This document shows, one piece after another, positions 42,323 through 49,239 of a stretch of 64,000 nucleotides of DNA. Position 1 is the first letter of the stretch; each line of letters begins with the position of its first letter. Source of the DNA: Bacteroidales bacterium (GTDB taxonomy: Bacteria > Bacteroidota > Bacteroidia > Bacteroidales > UBA932); assembly GCA_016287075.1 (NCBI GenBank), contig JAEEVC010000007.1, positions 58,734-122,733 of the forward strand. Direction: 5' to 3'. The notes under the pieces are model-generated. The model was given only the letters and a program-made list of their open reading frames with translations, made no database searches and was not told the DNA's origin. The position numbers were made by a program, and so were the translations under genes.

Positions 42323-43366
42323 ATGAAAAAGATCTATCCCGCCCTCCTGGCATCCCTGGTGCTGATGGGCTGCCAGACAAAAACAATGCATATGGATACG
42401 CTTTCCCTTACCCGGGAATGGGACAAAACCTTCCCGCAATCCGAGCTGGTCAACCACAGCAAGGTCACCTTCCACAACCGCTACGGCATCGTCCTGGCGG
42501 CGGATATGTATGTTCCGAAAGATGCAGAAGGCAAGCTCCCTGCCATTGCTGTCAGCGGGCCCTTCGGCGCGGTAAAGGAGCAGTGCTCCGGACTTTACGC
42601 GCAGCACATGGCCGAGCGGGGGTTCCTGACCATCGCTTTCGACCCTTCCTTCACCGGTGAAAGCGGGGGAGAACCGCGCAGGATGGCTTCTCCGGACATC
42701 AATACGGAAGATTTCCTGGCCGCGGTTGACTTCCTTTCCACCTGCGACCTCGTGGATCCCGAACGCATCGGCATCATCGGCATCTGCGGCTTCGGCGGCA
42801 TGGCCGTCAATGCCGCGGCGCTGGATCCGCGCATCAAGGCGACGGTCGCGTCCACCATGTATGACATGAGCAAGGTGAACGTGGAAGGCTACTTCGCGAG
42901 CGAGGATACGCCGGCCCAACGGATGGAGAAGCGCAAAGCCCTGGCCGCTCAACGCACAAAGGACTATGCTGCAGGGACCTACGAGCGTGCCGGCGGCGTC
43001 ATCGACCCGCTGCCGGAGGATGCGCCCTGGTTCGTGAAGGAATACCATTCCTATTATAAGACCCCGCGCGGGTACCATCCGCGCAGCGGCAACTCCACCG
43101 ACGGCTGGAACGTCATCGGGTGCCAGAGCTTCATGAACCAGCCCCTGCTCGCGTGGGCCGGGGAAATCGAGAATCCCGTGCTCCTGATCCACGGCGAGAA
43201 AGCCCACAGCCGCTATTTCAGCGAATATGCCTTCAGCCTGATGACGGGCTCCAACAAGGAACTGATGATTATCCCCGGCGCCACCCATATGGATCTGTAT
43301 GACGATGCAGCCGGAGTGATTCCCTATGATACGATGGAAAACTTCTTTCAAACGAATCTGCGATGA
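42323..43366 (+). CDS. Alpha/beta-hydrolase lipoprotein with Cys at the nucleophile elbow
   Basis: The 347-aa product has a lipoprotein signal (LLASLVLMGCQ). The hydrolase core has LPAIAVSGPFGAVKEQCSG, FLTIAFDPSFTGESGG, the elbow IGIIGICGFGGMAVNAAA, a Glu/Asp-bearing strand NPVLLIHGEKAHS and a His in IIPGATHMDLYD. The elbow lacks the usual Ser and has Cys, as in dienelactone hydrolases; YcjY-like relatives carry GICASAG there. The substrate is unknown. Its stop overlaps the start of the flavodoxin-like gene by 4 bp, and the divergent AraC gene is the probable regulator. Confidence 0.8.
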   Translation: MKKIYPALLASLVLMGCQTKTMHMDTLSLTREWDKTFPQSELVNHSKVTFHNRYGIVLAADMYVPKDAEGKLPAIAVSGPFGAVKEQCSGLYAQHMAERGFLTIAFDPSFTGESGGEPRRMASPDINTEDFLAAVDFLSTCDLVDPERIGIIGICGFGGMAVNAAALDPRIKATVASTMYDMSKVNVEGYFASEDTPAQRMEKRKALAAQRTKDYAAGTYERAGGVIDPLPEDAPWFVKEYHSYYKTPRGYHPRSGNSTDGWNVIGCQSFMNQPLLAWAGEIENPVLLIHGEKAHSRYFSEYAFSLMTGSNKELMIIPGATHMDLYDDAAGVIPYDTMENFFQTNLR

Positions 43367-44469
43367 AACTGCCGACGCTCCTCGTTGCAGCATGGGCTGT
43401 CCTGGCCGCTTTGACGTCCGCCTGTACGCCCCAGCCGCTGCCCGCCGACCCGCAGGCGGAAACGCCCGGTCAGCAAGATGATCCTGCCCCGCAGGATACA
43501 CCGGATCCGGTGGATCCGCCGAAACCGGAAGACCCTTCCGGACCGGCGGACGATCCCGGGCAGGATCCCGGGGATGTTCCGTCCACCCCGGAAACCGGCG
43601 GCAACAAGACCCTCGTCGTCTGGTACAGTTTCACGGGCAATTCCACGGCGATCGCCAGGGGGCTGCTGTCGCATATCAGCGCAGACGCCCTGGAGATCCG
43701 GCCGGCGGAGGAAGGATTGGATTATGCCGCAAACAATTATGCCATCGGCAGTTCCCTGATTGCCGCCATCCGTGCGAATCCTTCGTCAGCTGCGTCCTAT
43801 CCGGCCACCAAGGCGGTCGATGTCGCCTTCGGGGACTATGAGACCATCCTTATCGTCACCCCGCTGTGGTGGAGCCAGATGGCGGCGCCCATGCAGGGTT
43901 TCCTCTTCCAGAACGGGACGAAGATGGCAGGGAAGAACATCGGCCTCATCGTTACCAGCGCCAGCAGCGGCATTTCCGGCGTGGAACAGGATGCACGGCG
44001 GCTGGTTCCGGAAGGCAACTTCCTCTCCGAAAGTCTTTGGATTCGCTCTTCGCAGGTGGGCCGCGCGCCGGAACTCACGGCCGCCTGGTATGACAAAATG
44101 TTCCCGGTCACTCATGAAGAAACAGCTATGAACGCGCGCATTACCGCCGGCGGGCGGTCCTTTACCGCCGAAATCGAAGACTCTGCGACGGGACGGGCCT
44201 TTTGGGGCAAACTGCCGTTGACGCTGGATATGTCGGAACTGAATGGCAATGAGAAGTACTGCTATGGCGTCTCCCTGCCTGAAAACGACCGGTATTACGA
44301 CCGCATCGAGGCCGGTGACCTGATGCTCTACAGCGGCAGTTGCGTCGTGCTGTTCTACGGCTCCGCCGGAGGGTACAGCTATACCCGCATCGGGAAGGTT
44401 ACAGACAGTGCCGGACTGGCGCAGGCTCTCGGAAGCGCCGGCGTATCCGTTACTTTTGAAAAGCTGTAA
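43363..44469 (+). CDS. Lipoprotein with flavodoxin and cyclophilin-like domains
   Basis: The 368-aa product has a lipoprotein signal (LAALTSAC), then a Pro/Asp-rich linker (~22-82). A flavodoxin-like domain follows (~84-250): LVVWYSFTGNSTAIARGL as FMN phosphate loop, then ILIVTPLWWSQMAAPMQGFL and LIVTSASSGISG. A cyclophilin-like fold domain (~260-368) has FWGKLPLTLDMSELNGNEKYCYGVSLP and GDLMLYSGSCVVLFYG. Such cyclophilin-like proteins are usually separate genes beside flavodoxins. Here they are one extracytoplasmic polypeptide coupled to a hydrolase. A redox role at the envelope is likely; the partner is unknown. Confidence 0.82.
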   Translation: MKLPTLLVAAWAVLAALTSACTPQPLPADPQAETPGQQDDPAPQDTPDPVDPPKPEDPSGPADDPGQDPGDVPSTPETGGNKTLVVWYSFTGNSTAIARGLLSHISADALEIRPAEEGLDYAANNYAIGSSLIAAIRANPSSAASYPATKAVDVAFGDYETILIVTPLWWSQMAAPMQGFLFQNGTKMAGKNIGLIVTSASSGISGVEQDARRLVPEGNFLSESLWIRSSQVGRAPELTAAWYDKMFPVTHEETAMNARITAGGRSFTAEIEDSATGRAFWGKLPLTLDMSELNGNEKYCYGVSLPENDRYYDRIEAGDLMLYSGSCVVLFYGSAGGYSYTRIGKVTDSAGLAQALGSAGVSVTFEKL

Positions 44470-44492: not shown

Positions 44493-44846
44493 TCAACCGA
44501 ATTCCCCGATCAGGTAGAAAACCAGCAGGATGATGAGGAGGATGAATATCCAGCCCCAGCATCCGATTTTACGGGACTTCTTTTCGGGAGTCCCTTTTTT
44601 CGCAGGCGTTTTCGCGGCCGGCTTTTTCGGCTTCTTCTCCGGGGGATCGGCTTCCCAGGTGGAAAGCGTCATAACCCCTGGTTCACTCGTTGCGCGGAGA
44701 GCGCCGGCAGCATTTGCGGCGCGTGGCGCGCCTGGAGCATCTGCCGGACGGAACGCGTTCGGCGCAACTTCCACTTTCGTCCCGCAACGGGTACAGAACC
44801 GGGCGCCTGGAAGGATCTCTGCGCCGCAATGGGAACAATGTGCCAT
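44493..44846 (-). CDS. Zinc-ribbon protein with C-terminal membrane anchor
   Basis: The 117-aa product has an N-terminal zinc ribbon CSHCGAEILPGARFCTRCG (residues 4-22). A low-complexity Ala/Pro/Lys linker follows (KKPKKPAAKTPAKKGTPEKK), then one C-terminal TM segment (CWGWIFILLIILLVFYLIGEF). The zinc ribbon should face the cytoplasm. It lies 12 bp downstream of the 1212-aa gene on the same strand, the third member of an unrecognised locus. No function can be assigned. Confidence 0.75.
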   Translation of the reverse strand: MAHCSHCGAEILPGARFCTRCGTKVEVAPNAFRPADAPGAPRAANAAGALRATSEPGVMTLSTWEADPPEKKPKKPAAKTPAKKGTPEKKSRKIGCWGWIFILLIILLVFYLIGEFG

Positions 44847-44858
44847 GGTCTTATCCTC

Positions 44859-47800
44859 CTATCCAATGCTATACAGGGTCTCTCCCAACTCTTCCACGAA
44901 GGTGTCGGGCGTGAATCCCAATCTGTCGAGGGCGTCCTCGACATCGGCGAGATCGACTTTCGTTCCGGGCTTGAAGAGCTTCCTGCAGGTTTCGACGGCC
45001 GTGGCCAGCCGGGCCTGGATCCGGCTCGCATCGGCGCCGTTGCGCGCGACGTCGCGCGGCCGGATGTAGTTGTCGAACTGCTTGACGCCCTGGCGCAGGC
45101 CTTCCATATATTTGGAAACCGCATCGGCCTGCAGCGCCAGCCGTTCGTTGATATCTTTCACAAGGGAGGCTTTTTTGAGCAGTTCGTCGCCCTGCCGGAA
45201 CCATTCCTTGCCCTTGTAGGTCACGGCATCCGCCACTTTCCGGGGATTGGTCAGGTCCACTTTCATCTTGTCCGGATCCAGCAGGATATCGATGTCCTTC
45301 CCATAGCTTTCCGGATGGTTCAGGACGTCTTCGATGTTCGTCTGGTCGATGGACTTGGCGAACTTGTTCGACAGTTCGGCCGTCCGGCTGCGGAACCCGG
45401 TGCCGGCATCCGTGATCTGGTGGTTGTAGATCTGCGTCGTCATGTTCTGGTCGAAGTAGACCTTCTCATTCTTCGCATTGAGGTAGTAATAGGTGACATC
45501 CCGGTCAATGGTGACTTTCTTCCCCTTCACCATCAGCAAGGCATCCTGGTTCTTGCTGGCATTGAATACCAGGATCTTGTCGGCAGGGATGCCCGTGATC
45601 TCGCTGAGGGTCTTTTTCGTGTTCCGGTCCGCGATCCGGTAGAAGTCCCCCAGCGTCTCGTTGAACTCCTTGCGCGTGAAATCGAGCGATTCGTCGGCAT
45701 AGTTCTGCAGCAGGTACATCGCCTGCTTGTTCTTCTGGCACTGGACGACCATCTTGTTCTTCAACTTCAGGTTGTCCGGATCGAGCGGGTTCATGTGGTA
45801 GAGTTCGACAGCCGCACGAAGGTCCTCGATATCCTGCATGGCCTTTTTCCGGCCGTAGTCCAGGGCGTCGTCCATCGGCCCCGACGTTTTCTGGGACTTG
45901 ACCAGGTCCACGAGCTGGTTCGCGCGGTGACCGGCCGTCTCCATGGCCTCCTTGGACGAGTTGATGGCGTTCTTCGTCACCTTGCCCTTGAGGGAGGTGA
46001 GGAATTCGCCCGCTTCGGACTTCATCTCCTGGAAGGCATCCGACATGGCCTCCTTCGTGAGTCCGGCCTTCTTGGCCGCTTCTCCCACCTTCTTCATGCC
46101 GAAGTCCATGACCTTCTCGCTGAGGTACTCGCGCGTGACGATCATTGCGCCCACGCAGAATCCGCCCCAGACGCTGTCGCCGCCCTTGTCCACATACTCC
46201 TTCATGCTCCGCATGACTTCGAGGCTGGTGAAAACCACGTCGGCGCAGCCCAGCGTGGCGGCGCCGAGGGCGAGGCGGCTGAAGAAGCCCATGGAATCCT
46301 CGACCTCTTTCGCTTTGTCGAAGAAGCAGGAAATGAACAGTTTAACCTCATCGGCGAGGGTCAGCGGGCGCACGTCGGCATTGGCCCCGTACCGCTCGCC
46401 GCTCAACACGCCGTTGAAGATCTCCATCACCGTATCGATCGAATGCCTGTCATAGCCATAGGCGGCATCGTATCCGTCGATGAGCGTATCGATGTATTTG
46501 TCGAGCGGGAAAAGCTGGTTGTAGAGGCCCAGGTACATAATCTGGCTCTGGATGTGGAGCAGCTGTTCGCCGATGTGCTTGTCCTCGTTCAGCGCATGCA
46601 GGCTCTCGGACGCATTCAGTTCCCGGCGCGGCTGCGAGCACAGCAGGACATCCGCATAGCCGTAATACGTGCGGCCGGCATGTTCGGTCTTCAGCATCAC
46701 CTGGGCCTTGATGCGGGAAGGCGCATCCAGCACCTTGCTGCAGCAGCGGAAGCGGCATGCGCGCGCCCTTTCCTCGATCGTGCCGGAATAGACATCGCAC
46801 TGGATAGCCAGCGAGTCCACCAGGTCCTGTTTGGTGTCATCGAGGGCGATGACCCGGTAATCGGTCGGAACCGGGGCGATTTCCAGGAGCTTATGGTTCT
46901 CCTCATCATAATCATACAGGGCGATCCGTGCCTTGGTTTCCGCCGGCACATAGGTCTTGCCATCACCACCGGTCGCGGCGAATTTCTTCGTATCGTGGCG
47001 GCCCGGGTCGTATTCTTCGATGAAACACTTGATTTCATAGACGCCCATGAGGGCAAGGCCCATCTGGAAGCGCCGTATTTCGAGGAACCCTTCGAGGGGA
47101 GAGCCCGTGCCGGCTTGTGCCACTACTTTCAGGCTATAGGTCTGGTATTCACCCGGCATCAGGTCGCCGGGCCGTTTCTCGCCGGGCTTGCGCGGGGAGA
47201 TCTTTTCCGTGATGACGGCCTCGTGCAGCCGCAATTCCGGATTCCATTCCACCGTCACCTCATAAGGCCCGTTGGGAATGGAGGCCGTGATGTGGGCATC
47301 CGCCTCCATGCCGGTGGCCAGGAACGGCAGACGGACGGGCTTGTAGTATTCCGCGGGAATGGTCAGGTTATCCTGTCCGAAGACGATTTCTCCGGCGCGG
47401 ATCTGGAAATGGACATGGTTGGTATAAGAACCTTTCGCGCCGGCGAGCGCGAAGGTGACGATGCCTTCCTGGGGGATCGTTCCCGTTTCCGGGGCAAAGA
47501 CATCGGCCGCTTTCCAGCCCGCCTTCAGGGCCGCGGAAGGGGAGACCCTGAGGTAGTTGTCGCCCGAGACGGACAGTTTTGCCGTCAGGGCCGGATCGGG
47601 CTGCTCTTCGCCGCCGGCCCCGATCCGCACGATCTGGGCATAGACCTGCCGGGGTGCGTCGCCGGGGAACAGGGTGTCGCCGAAGTCCTTGTACATGCGC
47701 ATGGCATAGCGGCAGGCAGGCTGCTGCTCTTCTTCGTCCTCTTCCGGTTCTTCATCCCCGGAGTCGTCGTCGCCGGATGATTTCGGATGGCGTCTTTTCC

Positions 47801-48497
47801 GGATGCCGGCGATGATGCCGGTAATACCGGCGATCGCTGCGGCAGGAATGGCATAGTCCATCCACCCGTCCCAGTTGACAGCGTCGGAATCCACCTCGAC
47901 ATCGCTCCCGCCTTCCTCGTCGCTGCCATGCCGGTCCTTTCCCTTTCCAAAGGAAGAGGATTTCTCCTTGGAGGGTACCGGCGCGGCATCCTGCTCCACG
48001 TCATAATCGATGAAAATGCTCAACGCGCTTGACATCGGGGCCCAGTCGATGCCGCCGGTACTCGAGAAAGACATGCATATGCTCACTTTCTCAGCCCCTT
48101 CCGGTACCGTATAACTGGTCGATAAAGAAGCGTATTTCCCCCGTTCGGTATCCGCATTCCTGGAGGCGGGGGTATCTTCCAGATACCGGCTTCCTTTCAT
48201 GACCACGGAAACAGAGATAGATGTGCTGTTTGCGCCGATCCCTTCATCCGGACCATAGCCTTCCAGGCTCGTCAAGCCGAGCTGGATGGTCTCGCCGGGC
48301 CGGATGGTACCCACATAGGTCCTGAAATGAGCGTCATAGTAATCTCTTTCCTCTTTCATGGTGACCTTGCCGCCCGAAAAGGAAAAAGAGGCCTTCGCCC
48401 TGTCGAATTTCAGCGTGAAACTGTCAGCGTTCAGGGCCGGCGTGCAGAGCAGTCCTGCCGCCATGGATGCAAGGACTGCAAGAAGCTTATTTCGCAT
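44859..48497 (-). CDS. Large membrane-anchored protein of unknown function (1212 aa)
   Basis: I chose ATG 48497 (MRNKLLAVLASMAAGLLCTPALNA, a signal peptide) and dropped 19 track residues. The layout is: beta-rich exported N-terminus ~25-200; one TM at ~213-232 (MDYAIPAAAIAGITGIIAGI) followed by positive RKRRH; a very acidic linker (DDDSGDEEPEEDEEE); beta-sandwich-like modules ~260-560; then a long helical region ~640-960 with Lys/Glu-rich stretches; and a C-terminal region with VKGKKVTIDRDVTYYYLNAKNEKVYF. By the positive-inside rule the ~980-residue C-terminal part would be cytoplasmic, unless the signal peptide is retained. I recognise no catalytic domain. Zinc-ribbon membrane proteins flank it (11-bp overlap, 12-bp gap), so the three probably act together. 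Confidence 0.75.
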   Translation of the reverse strand: MRNKLLAVLASMAAGLLCTPALNADSFTLKFDRAKASFSFSGGKVTMKEERDYYDAHFRTYVGTIRPGETIQLGLTSLEGYGPDEGIGANSTSISVSVVMKGSRYLEDTPASRNADTERGKYASLSTSYTVPEGAEKVSICMSFSSTGGIDWAPMSSALSIFIDYDVEQDAAPVPSKEKSSSFGKGKDRHGSDEEGGSDVEVDSDAVNWDGWMDYAIPAAAIAGITGIIAGIRKRRHPKSSGDDDSGDEEPEEDEEEQQPACRYAMRMYKDFGDTLFPGDAPRQVYAQIVRIGAGGEEQPDPALTAKLSVSGDNYLRVSPSAALKAGWKAADVFAPETGTIPQEGIVTFALAGAKGSYTNHVHFQIRAGEIVFGQDNLTIPAEYYKPVRLPFLATGMEADAHITASIPNGPYEVTVEWNPELRLHEAVITEKISPRKPGEKRPGDLMPGEYQTYSLKVVAQAGTGSPLEGFLEIRRFQMGLALMGVYEIKCFIEEYDPGRHDTKKFAATGGDGKTYVPAETKARIALYDYDEENHKLLEIAPVPTDYRVIALDDTKQDLVDSLAIQCDVYSGTIEERARACRFRCCSKVLDAPSRIKAQVMLKTEHAGRTYYGYADVLLCSQPRRELNASESLHALNEDKHIGEQLLHIQSQIMYLGLYNQLFPLDKYIDTLIDGYDAAYGYDRHSIDTVMEIFNGVLSGERYGANADVRPLTLADEVKLFISCFFDKAKEVEDSMGFFSRLALGAATLGCADVVFTSLEVMRSMKEYVDKGGDSVWGGFCVGAMIVTREYLSEKVMDFGMKKVGEAAKKAGLTKEAMSDAFQEMKSEAGEFLTSLKGKVTKNAINSSKEAMETAGHRANQLVDLVKSQKTSGPMDDALDYGRKKAMQDIEDLRAAVELYHMNPLDPDNLKLKNKMVVQCQKNKQAMYLLQNYADESLDFTRKEFNETLGDFYRIADRNTKKTLSEITGIPADKILVFNASKNQDALLMVKGKKVTIDRDVTYYYLNAKNEKVYFDQNMTTQIYNHQITDAGTGFRSRTAELSNKFAKSIDQTNIEDVLNHPESYGKDIDILLDPDKMKVDLTNPRKVADAVTYKGKEWFRQGDELLKKASLVKDINERLALQADAVSKYMEGLRQGVKQFDNYIRPRDVARNGADASRIQARLATAVETCRKLFKPGTKVDLADVEDALDRLGFTPDTFVEELGETLYSIG

Positions 48498-49200
48498 TTG
48501 TGCAGCGGGATTTGATGAAGTCAAAGACGAAGTCGAAGTCCTCCGGGGAGACATAGACCTGATTCTTGTTCAGGAGCTGGTTGACCTTGATCAGATGGAG
48601 TCTGGGACGCGGGATGACGCGGCGGACGTTCGCGAAGACGGACGTGCTGGAGGTCTTGCCTGCCGACAGCAGGCCGGCGCCTGCGACCGTCGGCTTTCCG
48701 GCCGCCAGGCCCACCAGCGTGGTGATGAAGGCGACCGCCTGCGCTTTCTCGACCTGCCGCGGCAACTGGATGTGCTTGATTTCCTTTTCGTCCATCTCGA
48801 ACAGGACGACGTATTTCCCGCCGTAGATGGCGGCCAGCAGCAGGACGCCCAGTTCGGTCAGGACCGCCATGCCGGCCAGTGCGATGAGCAGCCCCTTCCC
48901 CATGTCCAGGAATCCGGCGAAATCCCCGTGGATGACGTAGATGAAAAAGCCGAACACGAGCCATCCGATGAGGATGATAAAGAAGAAGATCTTGTAAACG
49001 GTCAGGAAAACCGTCGGATTGGTGACCATGTTCATTTCATAGACCCAGCGGTACTTCCCGTCCGAGCACAACTGGACATCTTTTCCCTGGTAGGAAGTGG
49101 ATGCAAGGGGCTTGGTTTCGGGCGTGGCCGATTGTCCGCAATGGGGACAGAACTGGGCTTCTCCGGGAATCTCCTTTCCGCAGTGGGGGCAGTAACTCAT
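48487..49200 (-). CDS. Zinc-ribbon membrane protein
   Basis: The 237-aa product starts with a zinc ribbon MSYCPHCGKEIPGEAQFCPHCG. Two strong TM segments lie at ~62-90 (TVYKIFFFIILIGWLVFGFFIYVI) and ~97-122 (GLLIALAGMAVLTELGVLLLAAI). A cytoplasmic C-terminal domain (KYVVLFEMDEKEIKHIQLPRQVEKAQA ... VRRVIPRPRLHLIKVNQLLNKNQVYV) resembles small PH-like membrane-associated modules. That last point is an impression, not a match. It is the first gene of the 44493-49200 locus, its stop overlapping the 1212-aa gene by 11 bp. A TAGCTTTG box lies 31 nt upstream. Confidence 0.75.
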   Translation of the reverse strand: MSYCPHCGKEIPGEAQFCPHCGQSATPETKPLASTSYQGKDVQLCSDGKYRWVYEMNMVTNPTVFLTVYKIFFFIILIGWLVFGFFIYVIHGDFAGFLDMGKGLLIALAGMAVLTELGVLLLAAIYGGKYVVLFEMDEKEIKHIQLPRQVEKAQAVAFITTLVGLAAGKPTVAGAGLLSAGKTSSTSVFANVRRVIPRPRLHLIKVNQLLNKNQVYVSPEDFDFVFDFIKSRCTNAK

Positions 49201-49231
49201 GGGATAAATGGTATTTCGGTTGTTTGACTTA

Positions 49232-49239
49232 CAAAGCTA
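49232..49239 (-). promoter_or_regulatory. -7 box of the zinc-ribbon/1212-aa locus
   Basis: TAGCTTTG matches TAnnTTTG, 31 nt before ATG 49200; no other box is evident within the three-gene unit. Confidence 0.55.

Follow-up and report, generated by a model that had tools for sequence, protein, structure and literature searches.

The question raised by this locus is what purpose is served by a 1212-residue membrane protein encoded between two small zinc-ribbon membrane proteins. The window, meaning the whole stretch of 64,000 nucleotides that was analysed, carries the three genes on its minus strand. They are F1 (48487-49200; 237 amino acids, aa), with an N-terminal zinc ribbon, two transmembrane (TM) helices and a conserved cytoplasmic C-terminal domain, F0, the giant (44859-48497; 1212 aa), and F2 (44493-44846; 117 aa), with an N-terminal zinc ribbon and a C-terminal TM segment. 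An earlier reading of the letters alone, here called the sequence-only reading, had described just these protein types on one strand with minimal spacing, and gene calls, Pfam matches and predicted topology confirm the description. The F1 gene shares 11 bp with F0, and a gap of 12 bp separates F0 from F2.

Genuine coding of F0 and F1 is supported by their third-position GC of 0.78-0.81, and a long antisense ORF shows the displaced third-position pattern of a shadow frame. The F0 reading frame opens in a longer version at 48554; its start was set at the ATG at 48497 because a signal peptide results from this choice and because it agrees with a close relative (locus L017). About 30 bp upstream of the F1 start codon lies the Bacteroidota-type -7 promoter element TAGCTTTGT (49231-49239, minus strand), the sole copy of the motif TANNTTTGY within 44.4-49.3 kb, on the correct strand and directly upstream of the three genes. 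A search for a sigma-70 site of the E. coli type found none. The motif is five-fold enriched in the window, with 21 copies seen against 4.2 +/- 2.0 expected, and an operon of F1, F0 and F2 behind one Bacteroidota-type promoter is supported at the level of sequence. Many of the copies in the window are found just 5' of long ORFs. Adjoining the locus in convergent orientation (43363-44469, plus strand) is a gene for a secreted-looking fusion of Flavodoxin_4 (6e-10) and Cyclophil_like2 (7e-26) domains.

The giant had been credited with a signal peptide, a single TM segment and an acidic linker, and all three were recovered, the TM being weak. On the minus strand its parts run as follows. The signal peptide occupies residues 1-24 (48426..48497; MRNKLLAVLASMAAGLLCTPALNA, followed by D) and is present in most homologues, being replaced by a zinc ribbon and a TM in two loci (L067, L068). 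A variable ectodomain, predicted to be periplasmic, spans residues 25-205 (47883..48425) and is followed by the TM segment at approximately residues 211-232 (47802..47867; predicted weak here and weak in several homologues) and the acidic linker. Beyond these come a cytoplasmic region, residues 261-640 (46578..47717; 27-32% mean pairwise identity), which is apparently beta-rich and, at a guess, Ig-like; a hydrophobic helical segment, residues 731-800 (46098..46307), with the motif RLxLGxxTxG; and a conserved C-terminal domain, residues 876-1212 (44862..45872). The residues before the TM are mostly acidic, and those after it are K/R-rich in 30 of 30 homologues, stop-transfer charges from which the C-terminal part of the giant is predicted to lie inside. 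Natural fusions at L067 and L068, with the order zinc ribbon, TM, ectodomain, TM, C-terminal domain, place the zinc ribbon and the C-terminal domain on the same side of the membrane independently of the charge rule. They thereby support the earlier suggestion of a membrane-associated assembly with both the zinc ribbons and the C-terminal part of the giant in the cytoplasm.

Conservation follows this predicted topology. Averaged over all pairs of 18 representatives, identity is 13% in residues 1-205, 23% in the TM and linker, 32% in residues 261-470, 27% in residues 471-640, 33% in the hydrophobic segment 731-800, 21% in the linker 801-875, and 32-38% in residues 876-1212. Within the hydrophobic segment R741, T748 and G750 are invariant, and a similar motif is visible in a giant from the Clostridia. 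When 21 diverse C-terminal domains were compared, the clostridial one included, Q921, R942, D998, D1000, K1095, R1135, Q1136 and K1139 were kept in 21 of 21, and E1132 in 20 of 21.

What the C-terminal domain might be is a harder matter. A clear match of the giant to a characterised family, which the sequence-only reading had named as a finding that would count against it, did not emerge: none was found in Pfam, NCBIfam, PADLOC or PHROGs, a sequence search of the PDB gave nothing credible, and ten relatives of F0 scanned singly against Pfam gave nothing convincing. Apart from their zinc ribbons, F1 and F2 likewise have no match in these collections. An AlphaFold2 model of the C-terminal ~345 residues, built from 4 sequences and of moderate confidence (pLDDT 66, pTM 0.45), is mostly helical with three short strands only, so that of the earlier description of this part as helical and then strand-rich only the first half was borne out. 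Compared with PDB structures by Foldseek, the model had no significant match, and no enzyme class can be named on this basis. Chains of the MntA-HepT complex reached a probability of up to 0.82, but with an E value of 1.5 and a TM-score of 0.50 to the target, which is not significant; a GS..DxD-like stretch that recalls nucleotidyltransferases is a superficial likeness and was not confirmed. The same applies to a HAD phosphatase. D998-R-D1000-V-T1002, in a short strand, fits HAD motif I, DxDx[T/V], a short motif that is weak alone; the model, at a pLDDT of only 66, has three short strands among long helices, which speaks, though not decisively, against the Rossmann-like core of that superfamily, and the likeness was not confirmed.

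The zinc ribbons are on firmer ground. Both F1 (9e-9, 35.3 bits) and F2 (6e-10, 39.0 bits) match Pfam Zn_Ribbon_1 (PF13240) above its curated cut-off of 25 bits and carry its CxxC...CxxC pattern, which in F1 lies at residues 3-24 (CPHC...CPHC; 49129..49194, minus strand); they are the only PF13240 matches in the whole 2.87-Mb genome. The F1 family alignment has 30 invariant columns. A bacterial PH-like identity for the F1 C-terminal domain found no Pfam or PDB sequence match, and in the F1 model (AlphaFold2, 2 sequences; pLDDT 54) this domain is mostly below 50. Most loci have a homologue of F2, which frequently carries a further ectodomain beyond its TM segment. The position of the ribbon varies: F1 carries it at the window locus and at L060, a separate TM protein carries it beside an F1 devoid of a ribbon at L017 and L062-L066, and the giant bears it on its own N-terminus at L067 and L068, where at L068 the F2 ectodomain is a separate lipoprotein-like protein free of a zinc ribbon. 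Such shuffling of one domain among F1, the F2-type TM protein and the giant is a domain-fusion sign of one complex. F1-like proteins with a zinc ribbon and two TM helices are probably common in Lachnospiraceae.

Genome comparisons tie F1 to the giant as well. Counted at 80 bits or more, which leaves out bare zinc ribbons, F1 is present in 23 of 23 genomes with F0 and in 15 of 376 others (399 genomes of the family; Fisher p 1.1e-27). A survey of neighbourhoods, which the sequence-only reading had proposed, showed that, at each of the 20 same-family loci whose flanks are intact, the giant adjoins F1 and one or more zinc ribbons. In Prevotellaceae F1 adjoins the giant at most loci, before or after it, and some of these also have zinc-ribbon TM proteins. 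Homologues lacking both zinc-ribbon partners, which that reading had held to be telling against it, do exist locally, as the giants at L018 and L019 stand alone, but not genome-wide, since F1 copies occur elsewhere in those genomes. The L123 giant, of the same type, also lies away from F1; in G1212 other giants adjoin F1 or a zinc-ribbon TM protein. In six of the 15 genomes with F1 only, F1 has a different neighbour that probably carries the C-terminal domain, although one of the six neighbours runs off its contig and was assessed by its start alone; in several genomes F1 occurs with no recognisable protein of this kind. The identity matrices of F0 and F1 correlate (r 0.62, Mantel p 2e-4), which fits co-inheritance.

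Next to F1 in some genomes are secreted-looking proteins of 1155-1190 aa, termed F0b, with a signal peptide and one weak central hydrophobic segment (L017 3930-7394, L082 10219-13791, L083 3182-6667, L087 6153-9686, L093 10603-14076). They are probable relatives of the C-terminal domain, a grading that reflects remote homology: the F0b C-terminus aligns with that of the giant at pairwise hhalign E values of 1.3e-4 and 2.6e-4, a profile from F0 alone does not detect F0b, and strong scores arose from a profile that already held one F0b. Two divergent giants of a genome related to Prevotellaceae (L125 4359-8351 and 9218-12772; 1331 and 1185 aa) lie beside zinc-ribbon proteins with four TM helices, possibly a further variant of the module.

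The combination is found outside the Bacteroidota in the one clostridial genome that was covered, that of Acetoanaerobium noterae (NZ_CP154629.1), which encodes a protein 38% identical to F1 over its length (E 2e-51). Behind the F1-like gene come, in this order, genes for a small membrane protein, for a 366-aa protein that ends in a zinc ribbon, and for a 1576-aa giant. The final ~390 residues of this giant can be aligned with the C-terminal domain of F0 (hhalign E 3e-27; BLASTP 4e-8). The F1 homologue, the shared C-terminal domain and a zinc-ribbon protein in between are thus common to both; the clostridial giant differs in its ectodomain and in its N-terminal part, where four TM helices are predicted, and the zinc ribbon is the sole likeness of the third protein to F2. 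Recurrence of the same set in this species indicates that F1, a zinc ribbon and a C-terminal-domain giant are no accident of the Bacteroidales. The record NZ_CP154629.1, a 2.63-Mb circle filed in PLSDB as plasmid pTPELB2, looks chromosomal.

The module as now known thus belongs to gut Bacteroidales and one species of Clostridia, and it is patchy and accessory. Within the family, 23 of 399 genomes have F0; a sample of 393 genomes from the order yielded it once, in its own genome, and among 396 from the phylum it was again confined to its own. The C-terminal domain occurs in nine of 298 genomes sampled around a Prevotellaceae genome. These are draft assemblies, many of them metagenome-assembled and often with cut flanks. 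The nearest relative of F0 (L017, which seems to be identical with contig G500) is 68% identical with the same gene order and comes from a sheep-omasum Bacteroidales of another genus, whereas the same-genus giants compared are 19-29% identical, and the module therefore departs from the species tree. Giants often stand in tandem (G008, L057, L061, L102), three or four at some loci. In IMG/VR, searches for F0, F1 and the clostridial C-terminal domain among viral contigs returned zinc-ribbon fragments only and no relative of F0; phage records held no relatives of the module, and among plasmid records only that of Acetoanaerobium matched.

A variable outside, one TM segment and a conserved polar inside make up the anatomy of a receptor, and for this reason we favour, at roughly an even chance of being right, the view that the products of the three genes form a single inner-membrane complex of receptor type, which combines a variable sensor in the periplasm with a conserved output in the cytoplasm. 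The association, the predicted topology and the contrast between outside and inside are supported by the comparisons above; the physical complex, the direction of the signal, the ligand and the type of output are what we infer from them. The giant would be the receptor-like core, with its periplasmic variable domain, one TM helix and ~980 cytoplasmic residues. Its ectodomain would detect something in the envelope or outside, and a change would pass via the TM to the C-terminal domain (876-1212) as the output. F1 would be the regular membrane partner, and F1 and the zinc ribbon might hold or gate the output in the manner of adaptors on the cytoplasmic face, the ribbon acting as a detachable docking or cofactor module. 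The C-terminal domain may possibly be an enzyme or a nucleotide- or anion-binding domain. More tentative, and on balance doubtful, is the wider proposal that such a domain is new and that it belongs to a new class of bacterial transmembrane receptor, with a swappable sensor outside, a common output domain inside and a zinc-ribbon/2-TM adaptor that is retained across phyla. Several observations sit uneasily with the receptor-type complex: gene adjacency can mean co-regulation alone, three or four tandem giants at some loci go unexplained by a one-receptor picture, several genomes have F1 but no recognisable C-terminal-domain protein, the L018, L019 and L123 giants lie away from F1, and the TM is weak in several homologues.

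The giants could instead form a static envelope assembly that anchors a surface structure or a membrane domain. F1 would then be an assembly factor, there would be no signalling, and the conserved polar residues would belong to a structural core or an oligomer interface. Their very large size, the similar lengths of their tandem paralogues (G008, L057, L102) and a mostly helical C-terminal domain with no enzyme match would all suit such a scaffold. We nevertheless consider it unlikely, if the most serious competitor, as nine charged or polar residues kept from Bacteroidota to Clostridia suggest an active site or a ligand site rather than packing, and an ectodomain with 13% identity suits recognition better than it would a shared scaffold. 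Somewhat less probable still is an accessory conflict or defence system, in which phage or an attack on the envelope is sensed by the ectodomain or by the cytoplasmic part, and F1 and the zinc ribbon restrain a toxic effector made up of the hydrophobic helices and the C-terminal domain. The patchy distribution within the family, a closest relative in another genus, the tandem paralogues and the conserved segment 731-800 are what one would expect of it; however, the three proteins have no match in PADLOC, which covers described systems, no phage or mobile-plasmid copies were found, and the neighbours read in the window include no recognised defence genes.

The sequence-only reading had also hinted, from a phrase at F0 residues 991-1015, at a polymorphic or delivered protein. 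Polymorphic toxin systems (PMC3482391) share with the giant a very large multi-domain protein and a C-terminal domain set off by a linker, and the hydrophobic helical segment before that domain could be read in the same sense. In a toxin the C-terminus should vary and the N-terminus be conserved, but the check gave the reverse, 13% identity in the N-terminal ectodomain against 32-38% in the C-terminal domain, which contradicts a polymorphic toxin. In addition, the C-terminal part is predicted to be cytoplasmic from its stop-transfer charges, the membrane partners are conserved, and no toxin, pre-toxin or delivery domain was found in Pfam, NCBIfam or PHROGs. A toxin locus is accordingly the least probable of the readings, and very improbable in itself.

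The nearest described analogue that was found for the module is the ydjFGH(I/L)-type envelope-stress operon of Bacillus subtilis, in which PspA is encoded with zinc-ribbon membrane proteins (PMC11237479). Both have membrane-associated zinc-ribbon proteins encoded beside a membrane-associated partner. The Bacillus operon has PspA; PspA_IM30 was not found in the genome of the window by a search that finds it in nine of 14 control genomes. For the module described here no band-7 or TPM domain was found, its giant and F1 have no Pfam match beyond the zinc ribbon, and no part in common with the Bacillus operon came to light. No paper naming the module was found in the open-licence literature, nor any described system with these parts, and it appears to be undescribed. 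What were three hypothetical genes can now be treated as a definite module whose core is open to testing: two proteins accompany each other in two phyla, a zinc ribbon has been re-fused among the partners, the outside varies while the inside is conserved, and nine residues are named as targets for mutation. Should it prove to be a receptor system, it would be large, with about 1200-1600 aa per receptor and up to four receptors in tandem, and wholly missed by current domain libraries.

Other genes accompany the giants at some loci. Tandem giants are separated or flanked by signal-peptide proteins of ~350-390 aa (L020 3479-4522, 8496-9671 and 9677-10831; L024 6309-7355; L058 10404-11549), which may represent additional subunits of such arrays; the three that were scanned gave no credible Pfam family. 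In three genomes from the genus to which the window belongs, the giant is followed by a lipoprotein with a transglutaminase-like core (L062 1540-4074, L063 11419-13935, L064 11386-14007), matched by Pfam at 2e-23 in L063.
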